Source of the DNA: Gemmatimonadota bacterium | GTDB taxonomy: Bacteria > Gemmatimonadota > Gemmatimonadetes > Longimicrobiales > Gaopeijiaceae | Length of the DNA stretch: 64,000 nt | Assembly (NCBI GenBank): GCA_003248075.1 | Contig: QJYK01000088.1 | Location: 1 to 64,000 of the forward strand | Direction of reading: 5' to 3' | Shown here: positions 20,984-29,209 of the stretch, one piece after another | Numbering within the stretch: position 1 is the first letter of the stretch | Layout: the number at the start of each line of letters is the position of its first letter | Translations under genes and position numbers: made by a program | Notes under the pieces: model-generated | What the model saw: only the letters and a program-made list of their open reading frames with translations | Database searches by the model: none | Told to the model about the DNA's origin: nothing

Positions 20984-21562
20984 TCAGCTCGCGGCGATGA
21001 GGAACACGTCCCCGATGACGTGGACGATCCCGTTCGACGCCTCGATGCTCGCGAGGATCTTTGAGCCGTTCACGTAGGTCCCGTCCTCGCGCACCTCGAC
21101 GTCCACGTAGTGACCCGTGGCCATGTACAGCGGCACACCGTCCTTGAGCTGCTCGATGGGGAACTTCCCGGGTGCCGCATGCGACGTGATGATCTTCGCC
21201 AGCTTCTGCTTGTTCTCGGGCTTGAGCAGGTCGTCGACCGTGCCCGGAGGCAGCGCGTCGAAGGCGGCGTTCACCGGCGCGAATACGGTGAGCGGACCGG
21301 CATTGACCAACACGTTCTCGAGCTCGGCTGCCTTCACTGCCGCCACCAGCGTCGTGTGATCCGGGGACGACAGGGCGATACCGAGGATGTTCGCCTTCGA
21401 CTTCGCGTCGACCACGTACGCTTGACCTTTGTTGGAGGCGGCGTCGAAGGAGTCGCCGCCGGCGGGGGCGCCACTCTCGCCACCCCCACAGCCGGCCAGG
21501 AGCAGCAGCCCGAGCGCTCCCGGGATCAACAACACCCGAAGATCAGAGATGCTTGAGGACAT
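20984..21562 (-). CDS. Fasciclin-domain lipoprotein
   Basis: GGGAGG RBS; lipobox LLLLAGC; TLVAAVKAAELENVLVNAGPLTVFAPVNAAFDALPPGTVDDLL; NGIVHVIGDVFL. Confidence 0.92.
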   Translation of the reverse strand: MSSSISDLRVLLIPGALGLLLLAGCGGGESGAPAGGDSFDAASNKGQAYVVDAKSKANILGIALSSPDHTTLVAAVKAAELENVLVNAGPLTVFAPVNAAFDALPPGTVDDLLKPENKQKLAKIITSHAAPGKFPIEQLKDGVPLYMATGHYVDVEVREDGTYVNGSKILASIEASNGIVHVIGDVFLIAAS

Positions 21563-21700
21563 CTGAACCTCCCGAGGAGGAAAGCGGCGCGGCACTCCGC
21601 GCCAGGTGAAAAGGGGCCTCGCCGTCGGCCCGGGGCCCTTTGCCCCCACGCCGTGGCCAGCTACCGTTTGGGTGCCCCCCACCCGCGCTGCCGCGGGAGG

Positions 21701-22135
21701 ATGACAACCCAGCTCGAGCCTGCCCCCGTGCTCACAAGGACCGGTGGATACCCGCTCCACGCCGCAGTGGCGATTGCGGAGCGGGAGAGCGACGGACGTC
21801 TGGTCCTCGCGACGGAGATCGCAGCCGACCTGGACCTGCCCGCCGATTATCTCGCGAAGATCCTGCAGACGCTCGCGCGAGCCGGCATCCTCGGCTCGGA
21901 GCGGGGACGGAACGGAGGCTTCCGCATGACGCGGCCACCCCGCGAGATCCTTCTGATCGACGTCGTCGCTCCCTTCGACAACCTGGGACCGGAGCGCCAA
22001 TGCCTGCTGGGGCGCGGCACTTGCATGGAGGTGGGCGGCTGTCCCGCTCACAAGCAGTGGCGAGAGGCCAGCGCACCGGCTTTCCGGTTCTTCGAAACGC
22101 GCTCGCTCGCGGACCTCATGGGTAGACACGGTTAG
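21701..22135 (+). CDS. Rrf2-family transcriptional regulator with three-Cys motif
   Basis: GGYPLHAAVAIAE...LPADYLAKILQTLARAGILGSERGRNGGFRM; CLLGRGTCMEVGGC; convergent 4-bp overlap with nosY. Confidence 0.88.
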   Translation: MTTQLEPAPVLTRTGGYPLHAAVAIAERESDGRLVLATEIAADLDLPADYLAKILQTLARAGILGSERGRNGGFRMTRPPREILLIDVVAPFDNLGPERQCLLGRGTCMEVGGCPAHKQWREASAPAFRFFETRSLADLMGRHG

Positions 22136-22920
22136 AAGTCCATTCTCGTGAACCGTCGGAGCGCCCACGCGTAGGGAAGCGCGATCCAGGCGGTCAGCGA
22201 GACCGCCGCCCCTACCAGCCCCCACCCCTTCCCGAAGAAGTCCTGGAAAACCGCTCCCGTGTACCCGAGTAGCGCCGACGCGTCCACCGCGATGAGGATC
22301 AGAACCCTGGCCAGGTCGACCGGGTTGAGCACCATCGCAACGAGCATGGGACGCTCCAGCGGGTAGGCCGCGAACGCGTGGCTCGCGATCAACACGACCC
22401 CGTCGTACACCACCGTGAGGACCAGCCAGAGCAGGAGCGCCGCTCCGAGGCCACGCGCGGCGTCGCCCAGGGTGAAGGCGACGACAAAGCCGATGGCCGT
22501 GAAGACCGCGGTGAGGAGCGTCCCCGACAGGAGCAGCAGGACAGCCTGGCCCGGGACCTCCTGTGTGGCACCCGACGACGCCAGGGGAAGGCCGACGCCG
22601 AGCAGGAAGGCACCGATCAGCGGCAGGGTCAGCCCCAGGTACAGCCCGGCGAAGAGCGAGCGACGCCCGACCGGCTGCGACAGGAGCAGCTCCGTGAACG
22701 GCCGGCCGTCGTAGAGGAAGATGGTCGCCACCAGGAGGCTGACGAGGGGCACCGCCAGAAGCACCACGTTGGCCAGGGACGGGAGCACGCGCTCGACGCC
22801 GCCCCCGAGACGGACCAGGCCCAGCGTCGTTGCCAGGAAGAAGAGCGCGTAGCCGATCAGCGCCCGGCTCCGGACCACGTTCCGCGTCTGATAACGGAAG
22901 ACCTTGCGCGTGGTGGACAT
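22132..22920 (-). CDS. nosY: NosY-like ABC permease
   Basis: Multi-TM; FLYDGRPFTELLLSQPVGR; downstream of nosF in nos operon. Confidence 0.88.
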   Translation of the reverse strand: MSTTRKVFRYQTRNVVRSRALIGYALFFLATTLGLVRLGGGVERVLPSLANVVLLAVPLVSLLVATIFLYDGRPFTELLLSQPVGRRSLFAGLYLGLTLPLIGAFLLGVGLPLASSGATQEVPGQAVLLLLSGTLLTAVFTAIGFVVAFTLGDAARGLGAALLLWLVLTVVYDGVVLIASHAFAAYPLERPMLVAMVLNPVDLARVLILIAVDASALLGYTGAVFQDFFGKGWGLVGAAVSLTAWIALPYAWALRRFTRMDF

Positions 22921-23735
22921 CACGCCACCTCCTCGCCGCACCCGGAGGAGCGCGCTGGCCCGCTTCGCTCGTCACCGCCCTCGAGGATCAGCGCCGCGAT
23001 GGCACCTTCCAGCTCCGCCTGGCCGGTCGCCGCCAACAGCTCGGAGACCTCTCCCTCGAAGCGGACGACGCCGTCCAACAGGAAGACCACGTCGTCGGCG
23101 AGGGACTGGAGCTGGCCGAGATCGTGCGACGTCAGCAGTACGGTCCGTCCCGCGTCCCGCTCCGTACGTACGCGATCCTTGAGCACCCGCGCCGCCACCG
23201 GATCGAGACCCGCCGTGGGCTCGTCGAGAACGAGCACGGTCGCGCGGTACCTCAACGCCAGCGCCGCGTTCAGCTTCTGCTGATTGCCGCCGGAAAGGGC
23301 CCGGAAGGGCTTGGACATCTCCGTTACGATCCCGAACGACTCCACCAACGAATCGTCGGGGCGGCCCTCGAAGCCGCGCAGGTCGTCCAACATCGACGCG
23401 AGCTCGTGTCCGGTCAGGTTGTCCGGAAAGCGCGGCAGCTGCGGCATGTAGCCGATGTCGCGCCGGTACGCCGCGTCCCCGTTCACTCGGGCCTGTCCCA
23501 GCGTCACGGTGCCCTCGTCGGGTCGAACCAGCCCCAGGATCATCTTGAGCAGCGTGGTCTTCCCGGCACCGTTCGGGCCGAGAACAGCAGTGATGCGCCC
23601 CGGTCGGAAGCACACGTCCACGTCGCGGAGGACCGCCAGGTCACCATAGCTCTTGGAGACCCCGTGAACCCTCACCCATACCGGACGGGGACCCAGGTCC
23701 CGGAGCGCGCGCGCGTCGGTCACGATGGCCTCCAC
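22920..23735 (-). CDS. nosF: NosF-like ABC transporter ATPase
   Basis: Walker A GPNGAGKTT; LSGGNQQKLNAAL; VLVLDEPTAGLD; operon context. Confidence 0.92.
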   Translation of the reverse strand: MEAIVTDARALRDLGPRPVWVRVHGVSKSYGDLAVLRDVDVCFRPGRITAVLGPNGAGKTTLLKMILGLVRPDEGTVTLGQARVNGDAAYRRDIGYMPQLPRFPDNLTGHELASMLDDLRGFEGRPDDSLVESFGIVTEMSKPFRALSGGNQQKLNAALALRYRATVLVLDEPTAGLDPVAARVLKDRVRTERDAGRTVLLTSHDLGQLQSLADDVVFLLDGVVRFEGEVSELLAATGQAELEGAIAALILEGGDERSGPARSSGCGEEVA

Positions 23736-24994
23736 GGAGTCGCGATGGGGTTGAGGGCTGGACGTGCGTCCACCAGGTTGTCCGGCGTGAGCATCGGCAG
23801 CACGGACTCGGCGAGATCGAGGAGGGTAACCAGGAAGCTCCGCTGCAGGACCAGAGCCGGCTCGTTCTGCTCAACTACCAGCGAGAACAGGCGCACGGGT
23901 CGGAAGGGCACGTCGCCCGTACCGTCCCGGTCCCGATCGTAGCCGCGGTATCGGTCCCAGTAGTTGTCCTCGAAGGTGCTGTAGGTGCGGCGGCTGTTCG
24001 TCGACACGTCGAAGGAGTTGCCGACGAAGTTGTTGCGACGAAACGAGCTCTCCTCGGAGTTGGCGAGTACCTGAACGGCCCAACCGTTCGCAACGAAATC
24101 GTTCTCGACGACTTCGAGCCGGTTCGCCCCCTCGGCATGGATGCCGACGCTGTTCCTGTGGAACCGGTTTCCCGCGATGCGGGAGTCCGTGATCTCCTTG
24201 AGGAGCAGCCCGAACGCCGCGCCACCCCGATTGTCATCGAAGTCGTTCCCCTCCATCACGACCCCGCGCGTGTACATGACCGCCACGCCGGCGCCGTTCC
24301 GGCGGAACGAGTTGCGCAGGTAGCTGCACCCGTCCGAGAACATGAAGTGCAGCCCATAGCGGAGGTTGTCCTGGCTGCGGTTGCCCCGGACTCGGCTGTC
24401 CTCCACGAACTCGAAGTAGATCCCGTCCCGGTGGCCCTCCACGCGATTGTCCTCGATCGTCACACGGGCCGAATACCAGAGGTGGATGCCGTTACCCGCG
24501 CGGCTCTCCCGGTCTCCGTGGGCGATCAGGACGTTGTTCCGCACGACGCAATCCCCGGCGTTCGCCAGGTAGATTCCGAAGAAGGCGTTTTCGATGCGGT
24601 TTCCCTCGATGTGGCAGAACCGGACACGCTCGACGCGCAGCGCTGCGCGATCGTCGACGAAGGTGATCCCGGTGTCCCGCAGCGTCAGACCCAGGACCGA
24701 GACCGAGTCCGCCGCCACGACCACGAGGCCCCGGCGTCCCTCGCCGTCCAGGACGGCCCCCTCGCGCCCGAGCAGGGTCAGCGGCCGGTCGATGACGACG
24801 GTTTCCTCCCGATAGACGCCCGGCTCCACGACGACCGTGTCGTGGGGGTGTGCTGCCGCCACCGCCGCCGTCACGTTCGTGTAGGGGCCCGCGGCCCCCA
24901 CGCGGAGCACGTCGGGTCGCTGGGCTGCGGCCACGCCCGGGCGCGCGACGGCCGCAGCTACCACCGCTGCAACGGCGAGGAGCGCCCGTCTCAC
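23720..24994 (-). CDS. nosD: NosD periplasmic copper-site maturation protein (parallel beta-helix)
   Basis: GTG start after GGGAGGGTGAC; ENAFFGIYLANAGDCVVRNNVLIAHGDRESRAGNGIHLWYSARVTIEDNRVEGHRDGIYFEFVEDSRVRGN; SFDVSTNSRRTYSTFEDNYWDRYRGYDRD. Confidence 0.95.
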   Translation of the reverse strand: MRRALLAVAAVVAAAVARPGVAAAQRPDVLRVGAAGPYTNVTAAVAAAHPHDTVVVEPGVYREETVVIDRPLTLLGREGAVLDGEGRRGLVVVAADSVSVLGLTLRDTGITFVDDRAALRVERVRFCHIEGNRIENAFFGIYLANAGDCVVRNNVLIAHGDRESRAGNGIHLWYSARVTIEDNRVEGHRDGIYFEFVEDSRVRGNRSQDNLRYGLHFMFSDGCSYLRNSFRRNGAGVAVMYTRGVVMEGNDFDDNRGGAAFGLLLKEITDSRIAGNRFHRNSVGIHAEGANRLEVVENDFVANGWAVQVLANSEESSFRRNNFVGNSFDVSTNSRRTYSTFEDNYWDRYRGYDRDRDGTGDVPFRPVRLFSLVVEQNEPALVLQRSFLVTLLDLAESVLPMLTPDNLVDARPALNPIATPWRPS

Positions 24995-24995
24995 G

Positions 24996-26147
24996 TCACC
25001 CTCCCCGGGCTCCGGGGGCCTGGGTGCTGCTGTGTCCCCCGTGGGGCGGCTGGCCCTGGGGCCAGCGCTCCGCGACCAGCGCCTTGACCTCTTCCCAATC
25101 CACGGGGCGTCCACCGAACGCGTTCACCGCGCCCTCGCGGTCTTCTAGCCTGGCGAACGCCGTCAAGCCGAGTCCCATGGGAGATGCCAGCGTCGGGCTC
25201 ACGAGGAAGTGCGCTTCCTCTACCGAGACGAGGTCCGCGGGATTCGCGAAGTCCGTCACCCACATGGAGTGGACGCTGTCCGGGTCGTCCATTGCCTGGA
25301 GAAATGCCGCCATGCACTCGATGGAGTCGAAGACCCAGGCGCGGCCGGTCCGCGTGAGTAGCTCCGAGGCATGGCCTTCGTCCTCGATGCCCATCAGGCA
25401 CTGCGCACAAGCCTCGGAGCCGAACGCGATCGGGCGGGGAGTCGGCGCGCCGCATCCAGACAGCATGACCGTCGCGCCCAAAGCCAGCGCCGTCACCGTG
25501 GCGGCCCCCGACGTGTCACGGGCGCCGGAGCCGCCGCCGTCCGCGCCCCCCGTGGGGCTGCCTGTTCCCGCCATCCTCCGCCGCTCCGAGATCGCCAAGC
25601 CGACCGCGATGGCACCGGCCGCGATGGCGATCCAACCGCCCGACCCCGGCCACGAGTGCGCGGTGAAGTTCAGGATCTGTCGGCGACCGATCAGAGGGGG
25701 CTGGTAGCTCATGCCCGGGATCTTGATGATCGCGTGCTCCTGATCGAGGTCGTGCCCGTAGTCGTACTCCCACTTCCAGAAGTCCCCGAGCCCACCGAGG
25801 GCCACGACCAGGAAGAGGGTCGCCCACGCGTAGAGGACCTTCCGACGTCCGAGCGCCGCGACCAGGAGTCCGAAGCCGATCAGCACCGCCACGACGACAG
25901 GCATGATGCGCATCTCCGGAATGGACTCCGGCTCGATCCGCTTCATGCCGATGTAGTGGTTGAGGTTGTTGATGTTTCGCAGGTCGTGCTGCTTCTCACC
26001 GACGATCGTGTTGATTCGGATCACCATGCCCAGGCCCTCGGGGTACTGAGGGGCCTGCAGCCTGATGCGCCATACCGGGAGCACGTAGACCAGGCCCAGT
26101 GCCAGGGCGGCAACCAGGACCAGGATCCGGCTTCCCTTCCTCATCAT
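24996..26147 (-). CDS. nosL: Fused multi-TM membrane domain + NosL copper-chaperone-like domain
   Basis: N-term PVWRIRLQAPQYPEGLGMVIRINTIVGEKQHDLRNINNLNHYIGMKRI with several TMs; C-term GATVMLSGCGAPTPRPIAFGSEACAQCLMGIEDEGHASELLTRTGRAWVFDSIECMAAFL; one uninterrupted ORF. Confidence 0.85.
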   Translation of the reverse strand: MMRKGSRILVLVAALALGLVYVLPVWRIRLQAPQYPEGLGMVIRINTIVGEKQHDLRNINNLNHYIGMKRIEPESIPEMRIMPVVVAVLIGFGLLVAALGRRKVLYAWATLFLVVALGGLGDFWKWEYDYGHDLDQEHAIIKIPGMSYQPPLIGRRQILNFTAHSWPGSGGWIAIAAGAIAVGLAISERRRMAGTGSPTGGADGGGSGARDTSGAATVTALALGATVMLSGCGAPTPRPIAFGSEACAQCLMGIEDEGHASELLTRTGRAWVFDSIECMAAFLQAMDDPDSVHSMWVTDFANPADLVSVEEAHFLVSPTLASPMGLGLTAFARLEDREGAVNAFGGRPVDWEEVKALVAERWPQGQPPHGGHSSTQAPGARGG

Positions 26148-26219: not shown

Positions 26220-28202
26220 TCAATTGGTTCTCCAGGTGCCTCCCGTGCCCCATCGCAGCGGCGTGCTCGACCCACGTGGCGACACGCGTGCGTATCCCTG
26301 CATCTCCTGGTGGAGCGCCGAGCAGAAGTCCGTGCAGTAGAAGGGGTAGATCCCCACCTCACGCGGCACCCATTTCAGCGTCCTGGTCTCACCAGGCATG
26401 ATGAGCAGCTCGGCGTTCTCCGCGCCCATGGCCGCGAACCCGTGCGGCACATCCCAATCCTGCTCGAGGTTGGTGACGTGGAAGTAGACTTCGTCACCCA
26501 CGCGGATCCCCTCGATGTTGTCCGGCGTGAAGTGGCTACGAATGGAGGTCATCTGGACGTGGACCTGGTTCCCCTGCCGGGTCACCCGCGTCTCGGCTTC
26601 CGACTTCGCCGCGTACGGATGGGTGTTCTCCTCGAGCGCGTAGAACTGGACCTGGTTGTTCTGGATGATCTCCGCGGCGATCCCCTGCGCGTAGTGCGGC
26701 TCGCCCTGGGTGGGGAAGTCCAGCAGGAGGCGCATCCGGTCGCCGCTGATGTCGATGAGCTGGGCGGCGTGCGCCAGCTCGGGGCCGGTGGGGAGGTAGC
26801 GGTCCTTCGTGATCTTGTTCAGGGCCACCAGGTACTTGCCCCAGGGCTGACGGGAATCGCCACCCGGAATCATCAGATGGCCGACCGAGTAGTAGACCGG
26901 GATGCGGTCCACGACCTGCCAGGTGCCGATCTGCCACTTCACGATCTCGCTGGTGATGAAGGCCGTGGTGTACGCGAAGCCGCGACCGTCGAACTCGGTG
27001 TGCAGCGGCCCGAGGCCGGCGTTCTCCACCTCACCGGCGATGACCGACTCGTAGCGGATCACGGGTATGCCGTCCACGACCTCCTCGAAGTCCCCGGCCT
27101 CGATGGCCGCGATCATCTTCGAGAACGAGTGCACGGGGATCACCGTGGCGAGCTTGCCCCCCGCGGCGATGTACTCACCGGTGGGGTCCACGTCCACGCC
27201 GTGTGGGGATTTCGGAGTGGGAAGGAAATACACCAGGTTCTCGCAGTCCGCGGGCTCGATGACGCGGACGGAGGTGAGCTCCTCCGATACCGCGATGTGA
27301 TTCTCGTCGAAGTGGTTGTGGCGGTACCGCACCTGGGACGTTCCACCGGCCCCGTTCGCGATGCATTCCTCGGCGCGACGGTAGTTCACGGCGGCGACGA
27401 AGTCCTTGTCCTTCCTCGACGCGTTGATCTCCAGGAGCGTGTGCTCTTCCTCGGAGTTGTACGAGGTGAAGAACATCCATCCGTCGGAAGGACCCTTGCC
27501 CGCGTGCGCCAGGTCGTAGTCGTAGCCGGGCATCAGGATCTGGAACGCGATCTCCATCTCGTCCGGCTGGTTCGCGCGGATGAACGACAGCGTTCCCTTG
27601 AAGTTCCCCCGGTAGTCCTCGATGGACATGTCCCGGTTGGGGATCGGCACGCTGAAGCGCGTGGACGCCACGAGGTAGTCCGAGTTGGGCGTGATGAACG
27701 GAGAGCCGTGGTTGCCCGCCGAGTTCGGGATCTCGATGATCTCGGTCGTCTCGAAGGTCGTGAGATCGATGCGTGCCACCCGGGGCGTGTTGTTCCCGTT
27801 GATGAAGATCCAACGGCCGTCCGGCACGCCGTCGGTCATCGACAGCTCGGGGTGATGCGCGTCGTCCCAGGGCAGGAAGCCGTGGGACGTCTGCAGCATG
27901 GCCTTCGTCTCCTCGGAGTATCCCCAGCCGTTCTCCGGATACTGGCTGAAGACCGGCACCGTCTTGAGGAGCCTCCCCGACGGGAGGCCCATCACCGTGA
28001 GGTTCCCGCTGAAGCCGCCGGACATGAAGGCGTAGAACTCGTCGTAGGTGCCGGGAGCCACGTAGACCGCCTGGGCGGCGCTGGCCATGTCTCCCGCTCC
28101 CACTGCGCCCCCGCCCCCACCCTGGCACGCGTAGGTGCCCGCCGTACCCGCAGCGACGAGCGCGCCGATCAGGTAGAGGCTTCGGTTGGACGTGCGACTC
28201 AT
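26220..28202 (-). CDS. nosZ: Nitrous oxide reductase, clade II/atypical type (Sec-type N-terminus, no twin-Arg)
   Basis: CuA FYCTDFCSALHQEMQGY; CuZ-type His motifs DDAHHP, GNHGSPF, RYRHNHFDENH, PKSPHGVDV, GLGPLHTEF, YYSVGHL, GEPHYAQ; AAGGAGGAG RBS. Confidence 0.97.
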   Translation of the reverse strand: MSRTSNRSLYLIGALVAAGTAGTYACQGGGGGAVGAGDMASAAQAVYVAPGTYDEFYAFMSGGFSGNLTVMGLPSGRLLKTVPVFSQYPENGWGYSEETKAMLQTSHGFLPWDDAHHPELSMTDGVPDGRWIFINGNNTPRVARIDLTTFETTEIIEIPNSAGNHGSPFITPNSDYLVASTRFSVPIPNRDMSIEDYRGNFKGTLSFIRANQPDEMEIAFQILMPGYDYDLAHAGKGPSDGWMFFTSYNSEEEHTLLEINASRKDKDFVAAVNYRRAEECIANGAGGTSQVRYRHNHFDENHIAVSEELTSVRVIEPADCENLVYFLPTPKSPHGVDVDPTGEYIAAGGKLATVIPVHSFSKMIAAIEAGDFEEVVDGIPVIRYESVIAGEVENAGLGPLHTEFDGRGFAYTTAFITSEIVKWQIGTWQVVDRIPVYYSVGHLMIPGGDSRQPWGKYLVALNKITKDRYLPTGPELAHAAQLIDISGDRMRLLLDFPTQGEPHYAQGIAAEIIQNNQVQFYALEENTHPYAAKSEAETRVTRQGNQVHVQMTSIRSHFTPDNIEGIRVGDEVYFHVTNLEQDWDVPHGFAAMGAENAELLIMPGETRTLKWVPREVGIYPFYCTDFCSALHQEMQGYARVSPRGSSTPLRWGTGGTWRTN

Positions 28203-28241: not shown

Positions 28242-28760
28242 TCAGCGGTCGCCGCCGGTTCCGTTGGATGTGGACGACGCACCGGTCTGGACGGACCGGA
28301 GGTACTCGAGGATCGCCCGCGCTTCGTCGTGATCCGTCACCTGGACGGGCATTGGCGTGTAGTACTGCGCCAACAGTTCCTTCACGACCGGGTGCCGCTG
28401 GACCATCTCGTTGGAGTTGAGGATCTGATTCATCACGAACTCGGGCCGTCGCCTCGACAGGACCTGGCCCAGTTCGGGGCCCACGTAACGCTCCTCGATC
28501 TTGTGGCAAGCGGAGCACTTGGTCGTGAAGGCGGCTTCACCCGATTCCGCCAGGGCGAGATCGATGGGGCCGAGCTCCAGGTCGCGGATGGGCCCGATCC
28601 CCTGTTCCATCTCCACGTCGGTCAGCTCGGCCGCGCTCGAGGGGGCGGCGGCGCTGGGCGCGGCCGCGGTGCTCTGGGCAGGAGGCGCGTCGCCGCCACA
28701 CGCGGCGAGCGCCGCCAGCGCGCTGAGCAGGAGGGTCACGGGGGCGGTCGAGCGGTTCAT
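28242..28760 (-). CDS. Class I c-type cytochrome lipoprotein, putative electron donor to NosZ
   Basis: Lipobox ALAAC; CSACH haem motif with YTPMPVQVTDHDEARAILEYLRSV (distal Met). Confidence 0.92.
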   Translation of the reverse strand: MNRSTAPVTLLLSALAALAACGGDAPPAQSTAAAPSAAAPSSAAELTDVEMEQGIGPIRDLELGPIDLALAESGEAAFTTKCSACHKIEERYVGPELGQVLSRRRPEFVMNQILNSNEMVQRHPVVKELLAQYYTPMPVQVTDHDEARAILEYLRSVQTGASSTSNGTGGDR

Positions 28761-29209
28761 CGATCGTTCTCCGTCGGTTGGTTTGAGTGTCCCGGGCGGT
28801 CGGCCTCTTCGGGTGTCCCCGCCAGCAGATCGGCCAGGGTCGTGCGCGCCAGGCTCGCCAAGGCGGCGGCGTTCCACTGGAGGCGACGCGTGTGCGCGAC
28901 GCAGGGGTTGGACAGGTCGCACAGACCCCCCATCAGGCACACACGCGGCGTCTTCAGCTCCTGGAAAGGCGCGACCGCGGTCGCGACGGTCAGCCGGGCC
29001 GGATCGGGAACCAGACGGTAGCCGCCGCGGGCCCCCCTCGTCGCCTCGAGGATCCCCTCTCTCGAGAGCCGTTGAAGGATCTTCGCGAGGTAGTTGGCGG
29101 GAATCCCGAGCTCCCGGGCCATGTGGCCTGCGGGCACCGGTCCGTTCCGTCCCTTCGCGGCGAGATGAAGGAGGGCTTGCAGGGCGTAGAGTCCCGTCTG
29201 AGAGAGCAT
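28757..29209 (-). CDS. Rrf2-family (NsrR-like) transcriptional regulator, first gene of nos operon
   Basis: TGLYALQALLHLAAK...IPANYLAKILQRLSREGILEATRGARGGYRL; CLMGGLCDLSNPC; overlaps cytochrome c start by 4 bp. Confidence 0.92.
   Translation of the reverse strand: MLSQTGLYALQALLHLAAKGRNGPVPAGHMARELGIPANYLAKILQRLSREGILEATRGARGGYRLVPDPARLTVATAVAPFQELKTPRVCLMGGLCDLSNPCVAHTRRLQWNAAALASLARTTLADLLAGTPEEADRPGHSNQPTENDR

Follow-up and report, generated by a model that had tools for sequence, protein, structure and literature searches.

A NosB-NosL fusion gene within a clade II nos operon

The window, by which we mean the whole 64,000-nucleotide stretch of a Gemmatimonadota genome that was analysed, carries an intact nos operon on its minus strand, in the order cytochrome c, nosZ, the fusion gene nosBL, nosD, nosF and nosY. 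The fusion gene lies directly after a clade II nosZ and before nosDFY, and it is a single open reading frame of 383 codons that runs from an ATG at 26147 to a TGA ending at 24996, with no internal stop. A sequence-only reading of this DNA had proposed an uninterrupted frame joining a multi-TM protein to NosL inside a nos operon. The reading of the frame and a Pfam NosL match confirm the first point, and profile matches for nosZ and nosD, with nosF and nosY behind them, confirm the second. The features are, in the direction of transcription:

28242..28760, minus strand: c-type cytochrome upstream of nosZ, lipobox-like N-terminus (PF00034; start inferred, by eye)
26220..28202, minus strand: nosZ, clade II, Sec-type, lipobox-like N-terminus (TYAC) (TIGR04246, 919.5 bits)
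24996..26147, minus strand: nosBL, NosB-NosL fusion frame, 383 aa (single ORF, NosL Pfam match, NosB motifs, same fusion in relatives)
25575..26147, minus strand: NosB half, aa 1-191, four TM helices, LNHYIGM and YGHD motifs (AlphaFold mean pLDDT 93.5; conserved columns)
25506..25574, minus strand: variable linker, aa 192-214, predicted cytoplasmic (pLDDT <50 at 203-212; length differs widely among fusions)
25452..25505, minus strand: internal lipoprotein-type signal, hydrophobic helix aa 215-229 and lipobox MLSG-C (Cys232 codon 25454..25452)
25080..25418, minus strand: NosL domain, PF05573, CXXCXM at aa 247-252, second Met M324 (Pfam, alignment, fold match to 7og7, 7osf and 7znq)
23720..24994, minus strand: nosD (TIGR04247, 416 bits; GTG start inferred, one base past the nosBL stop codon)
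22920..23735, minus strand: nosF, ABC ATPase (PF00005; NosF profile)
22132..22941, minus strand: nosY, ABC permease (PF12679; NosY profile)

Rrf2-type regulators appear on both flanks of the operon (21653-22135, plus strand, and 28757-29209, minus strand, the latter matching PF02082), and a fasciclin-like lipoprotein, judged by eye, lies downstream of it (20984-21560, minus strand). The lipobox-like N-terminus of NosZ recurs in 121 of 180 NosZ frames examined, many of which are truncated.

We identify the N-terminal half of the fusion as NosB on its published motifs and its operon place. PMC9697520 gives the stretches LNHYIGM and YGHN and a position after nosZ as hallmarks, and PMC11388526 gives four or six TM helices beside clade II nosZ. 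In the window LNHYIGM occupies aa 62-68 and YGHD aa 130-133, with D in place of N, a substitution that many relatives share; in the alignment of NosB sequences H64, M68 and G131 are invariant and H132 is nearly so. AlphaFold places TM helices at 4-21, 78-99, 102-129 and 169-194, four in all. The unnamed multi-TM partner of the sequence-only reading is therefore a membrane protein, as it had said, and more specifically a known one. NosB is essential in Wolinella, and electron transport or copper handling has been suggested as its role (PMC9697520). The half gave no match above cut-off in Pfam or NCBIfam, and searching PDB sequences with a profile of NosB gave none either. Foldseek matched the NosB model (25575-26147, minus strand) mainly to claudin, TARP and DUOXA1 (best E 2e-4, modest TM-scores of about 0.4-0.5), a topology lead, as a four-helix class, and not homology.

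The C-terminal half has the character of a canonical clade II NosL with its copper-site residues kept. The Pfam model PF05573 scores 37.9 bits over aa 244-356 (cut-off 24), and the two features expected of clade II NosL, CXXCXM and a second conserved methionine (PMC6530538), are present as CAQCLM at aa 247-252 and as M324 within SPMG. The stretch FDSIECMAAFL lies at aa 273-283, as described earlier, and Foldseek finds that the half resembles the solved NosL structures 7og7, 7osf and 7znq. It shares the Pfam family, a CXM copper motif, the second methionine and a lipobox, with a match in fold, with NosL of Paracoccus denitrificans (PMC6530538) and NosL of the solved NosDFYL complexes (7osf-7osj, 7znq). 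Both of those, unlike the protein in the window, are standalone lipoproteins with an N-terminal signal. A Pfam search of the 5.6-Mb draft genome found nosBL as its only NosL match and no second NosL elsewhere, so any use that is made of NosL must rely on the copy in the window.

Fused, separate and related arrangements

Fusions of this kind are already known, having been published in PMC9697520. That paper, with reference to van Spanning 2011 and to Hein et al. 2017, describes a NosB-NosL fusion in Dyadobacter fermentans, infers one in Flavobacterium as well, and uses the name 'NosB-L', also for Flavobacterium azooxidireducens. These proteins resemble ours in their two domains and the order of these, in the position between clade II nosZ and nosD, and in the LNHYIGM and YGHN motifs; they differ in that the window belongs to a member of Gemmatimonadota. 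The available part of the paper does not discuss a lipobox at the junction or processing of NosB-L. The window thus holds a further case of a known fusion type, and the new point is that the lipobox is kept in every fusion examined.

The comparison of fused with split genes that the sequence-only reading had proposed was carried out on 165 distinct NosB loci, whose proportions are not population frequencies because relatives of the query are over-represented among them. NosB forms a fusion with NosL at 39 of these loci, stands beside a separate nosL at 86, the commonest state, lacks an adjacent NosL at 33, is fused to NosD at three and is cut by a contig end at four. The separate clade II proteins have the same sequences, operon position and lipobox as the fused protein, differing in being two genes. 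Matches to the query occur in 103 of 298 genomes of the phylum; Bacteroidota were covered by loci fetched from genome contigs and by the literature. A search of viral contigs for relatives of the fusion found none.

The same uninterrupted fusion, 56-61% identical along the whole alignment, occurs in five relatives (G190, G075, G167, G252 and L053). A quickly built NosB tree, many of whose forks are weak, places the window within a supported clade of six fused sequences; the fusion recurs in several phyla, and the fused or split label needs 20 changes, at least 10 of them forced by well-supported branches. This distribution indicates that fusion or fission of NosB and NosL has recurred. A recent fusion, one of the two origins that had been offered for the retained lipobox, we reject, since the supported clade and several phyla carry it.

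Other fusions occur in the same operons. NosL is joined to NosD in one frame at three loci (L032, 2853-5087, minus strand; L042, 349-2466, plus strand; L209, 3303-5264, minus strand), in the nos operons of G117, G093 and G229. NosB is joined directly to NosD at three more (L189, 3676-5682, minus strand; L148, 4981-6870, plus strand; L150, 3786-5741, minus strand), in those of G048, G016 and G156; these three genomes have nosZ, nosF and nosY and gave no Pfam NosL match. Twelve further genomes with nosZ-nosB-nosDFY, all listed as at least 95% complete, gave no Pfam NosL match either (G021, G023, G177, G029, G142, G044, G012, G277, G030, G109, G200 and G049), and in these NosL is either dispensable or too diverged. 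Eight loci (L032, L034, L035, L036, L037, L040, L042 and L126) encode a NosL-like domain that lacks CXXCXM and the second methionine and keeps the lipobox cysteine. This degenerate domain is fused to NosB in most of them and separate in L126, and a canonical NosL comes after it wherever the downstream region is covered. The persistence of the lipobox where the copper site has gone supports the view that processing or lipidation is what has been conserved.

The junction and its possible processing

The stretch LGATVMLSGCGAP lies at aa 223-235 of the fusion and contains the lipobox MLSGC (aa 228-232), internal to the frame. AlphaFold gives, beyond the four NosB helices, a disordered linker, then a short helix of 15 residues (215-229) ahead of Cys232, and after it a NosL domain. 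The junction cysteine is present in all 39 fusions, always preceded by G, A or S. Among the 33 fusions that were aligned it is invariant, and position 231 holds only three residue types; the flanking hydrophobic columns carry 7-10. A PROSITE-like lipobox pattern matches 37 of 39 junction cysteines, compared to 2 of 132 other cysteines in the same proteins, in agreement with the earlier suggestion that NosL keeps its own lipobox at the joint. Within clades that are entirely fused, about 5.6 substitutions have accumulated per NosB column and the junction cysteine has been lost zero times. We conclude, from this conservation, that lipidation at Cys232 appears to be under selection. The genome of the window encodes Lgt and LspA.

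We propose that nosBL encodes a polyprotein that is cut at its internal lipobox and releases a lipid-anchored NosL, a reading to which we give a probability of roughly 60%. NosB would span the membrane four times, with both ends in the cytoplasm, and be followed by a flexible cytoplasmic linker. With four helices NosB ends on the side on which it starts, taken as the cytoplasm, and so the NosL signal would be correctly oriented for export: it would re-enter the membrane and carry the NosL domain to the periplasm. Lgt would then lipidate Cys232, and LspA, whose cutting normally follows lipidation, would be likely to cut just ahead of it. Cleavage would leave NosB in the membrane, where it would perform a separate job of its own, and free a normal lipid-anchored NosL in equal amount, which would work with NosDFY to provide Cu(I) to the CuZ centre of NosZ. 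We infer the topology from the model, and we likewise infer lipidation, cleavage and stoichiometry. Post-translational separation, the other origin offered by the sequence-only reading, is the one that the strictly conserved junction cysteine favours.

A comparable arrangement is fbcH of Bradyrhizobium, a cytochrome b/c1 polyprotein in which a membrane protein and its periplasmic partner are cut apart at an internal signal. Its proteins are unrelated to NosB and NosL, and the enzyme that makes the cut is ordinary signal peptidase, not LspA. It would be unusual for LspA to act at such a distance from an N-terminus, the fbcH precedent using a different peptidase. Our literature search for internal-lipobox polyproteins returned only an unrelated match, and the use of an internal lipobox to make a membrane protein and a lipoprotein at a set ratio was not found described. 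The internal lipobox and the polyprotein prediction were likewise not found in the literature searched, and we claim no priority over the primary papers on the published fusions (van Spanning 2011; Hein et al. 2017).

The main rival, the covalent tether raised by the sequence-only reading, is a protein that stays uncut, in which the fifth hydrophobic segment would be a permanent anchor, perhaps with lipid on Cys232, and copper delivery by NosL would be tethered to NosB. We consider this possible but doubtful. The frame is continuous, interacting proteins once fused often remain so, and NosL-NosD and NosB-NosD fusions exist too. In fusions the hydrophobic run before the junction cysteine also exceeds that of separate NosL slightly (median 15 compared to 13 residues, p=7e-7), and a partly anchor-like role would give such a difference. 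However, a permanent tether leaves unexplained the invariant lipobox cysteine after G, A or S (39 of 39), including in fusions that have lost their copper residues, and the segment, itself short, falls below the first TM helix of NosB in hydrophobicity: its best-19 hydropathy is like that of separate NosL signals (p=0.27) and below that of NosB TM1 (p=1e-10). The run is signal-like and stops soon past the cysteine, in most fusions with a charged, polar or proline position one residue on. Lipid attachment without cutting, or with slow cutting, would also conserve Cys232.

NosL might also, or mainly, be made separately by translation restart at the ATG of codon 192, upstream of which GGAG-like bases lie in the window. 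As a rule for the family we judge this improbable and set it aside: an internal start with a Shine-Dalgarno-like site occurs in only 7 of 39 fusions, and in four the linker contains no in-frame start codon. In the window itself the nearest purine-rich bases abut the ATG, and the leader from codon 192 would be long and nearly uncharged. Finally, although separate adjacent nosB and nosL are the commonest arrangement, we reject the joining of two ordinary genes by sequencing or assembly error, the junction fault that would have undone the sequence-only reading, as having next to no chance, because the five relatives carry the same uninterrupted fusion in other assemblies and the linker keeps the reading frame and has a GC3 similar to that of the remainder.

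Copper delivery and N2O reduction

NosZ is, to our knowledge, the only biological sink for N2O. The recurrence of fusions between NosB and NosL, NosL and NosD, and NosB and NosD links NosB with the copper and maturation branch of this system, and not only to electron transfer. We regard it as evenly balanced whether NosB and NosL are repeatedly produced by clade II N2O reducers in the form of an LspA-cut polyprotein, which would fix the ratio of membrane protein to lipoprotein. For this family of fusions, the invariant internal lipobox yields a simple and testable prediction of processing.
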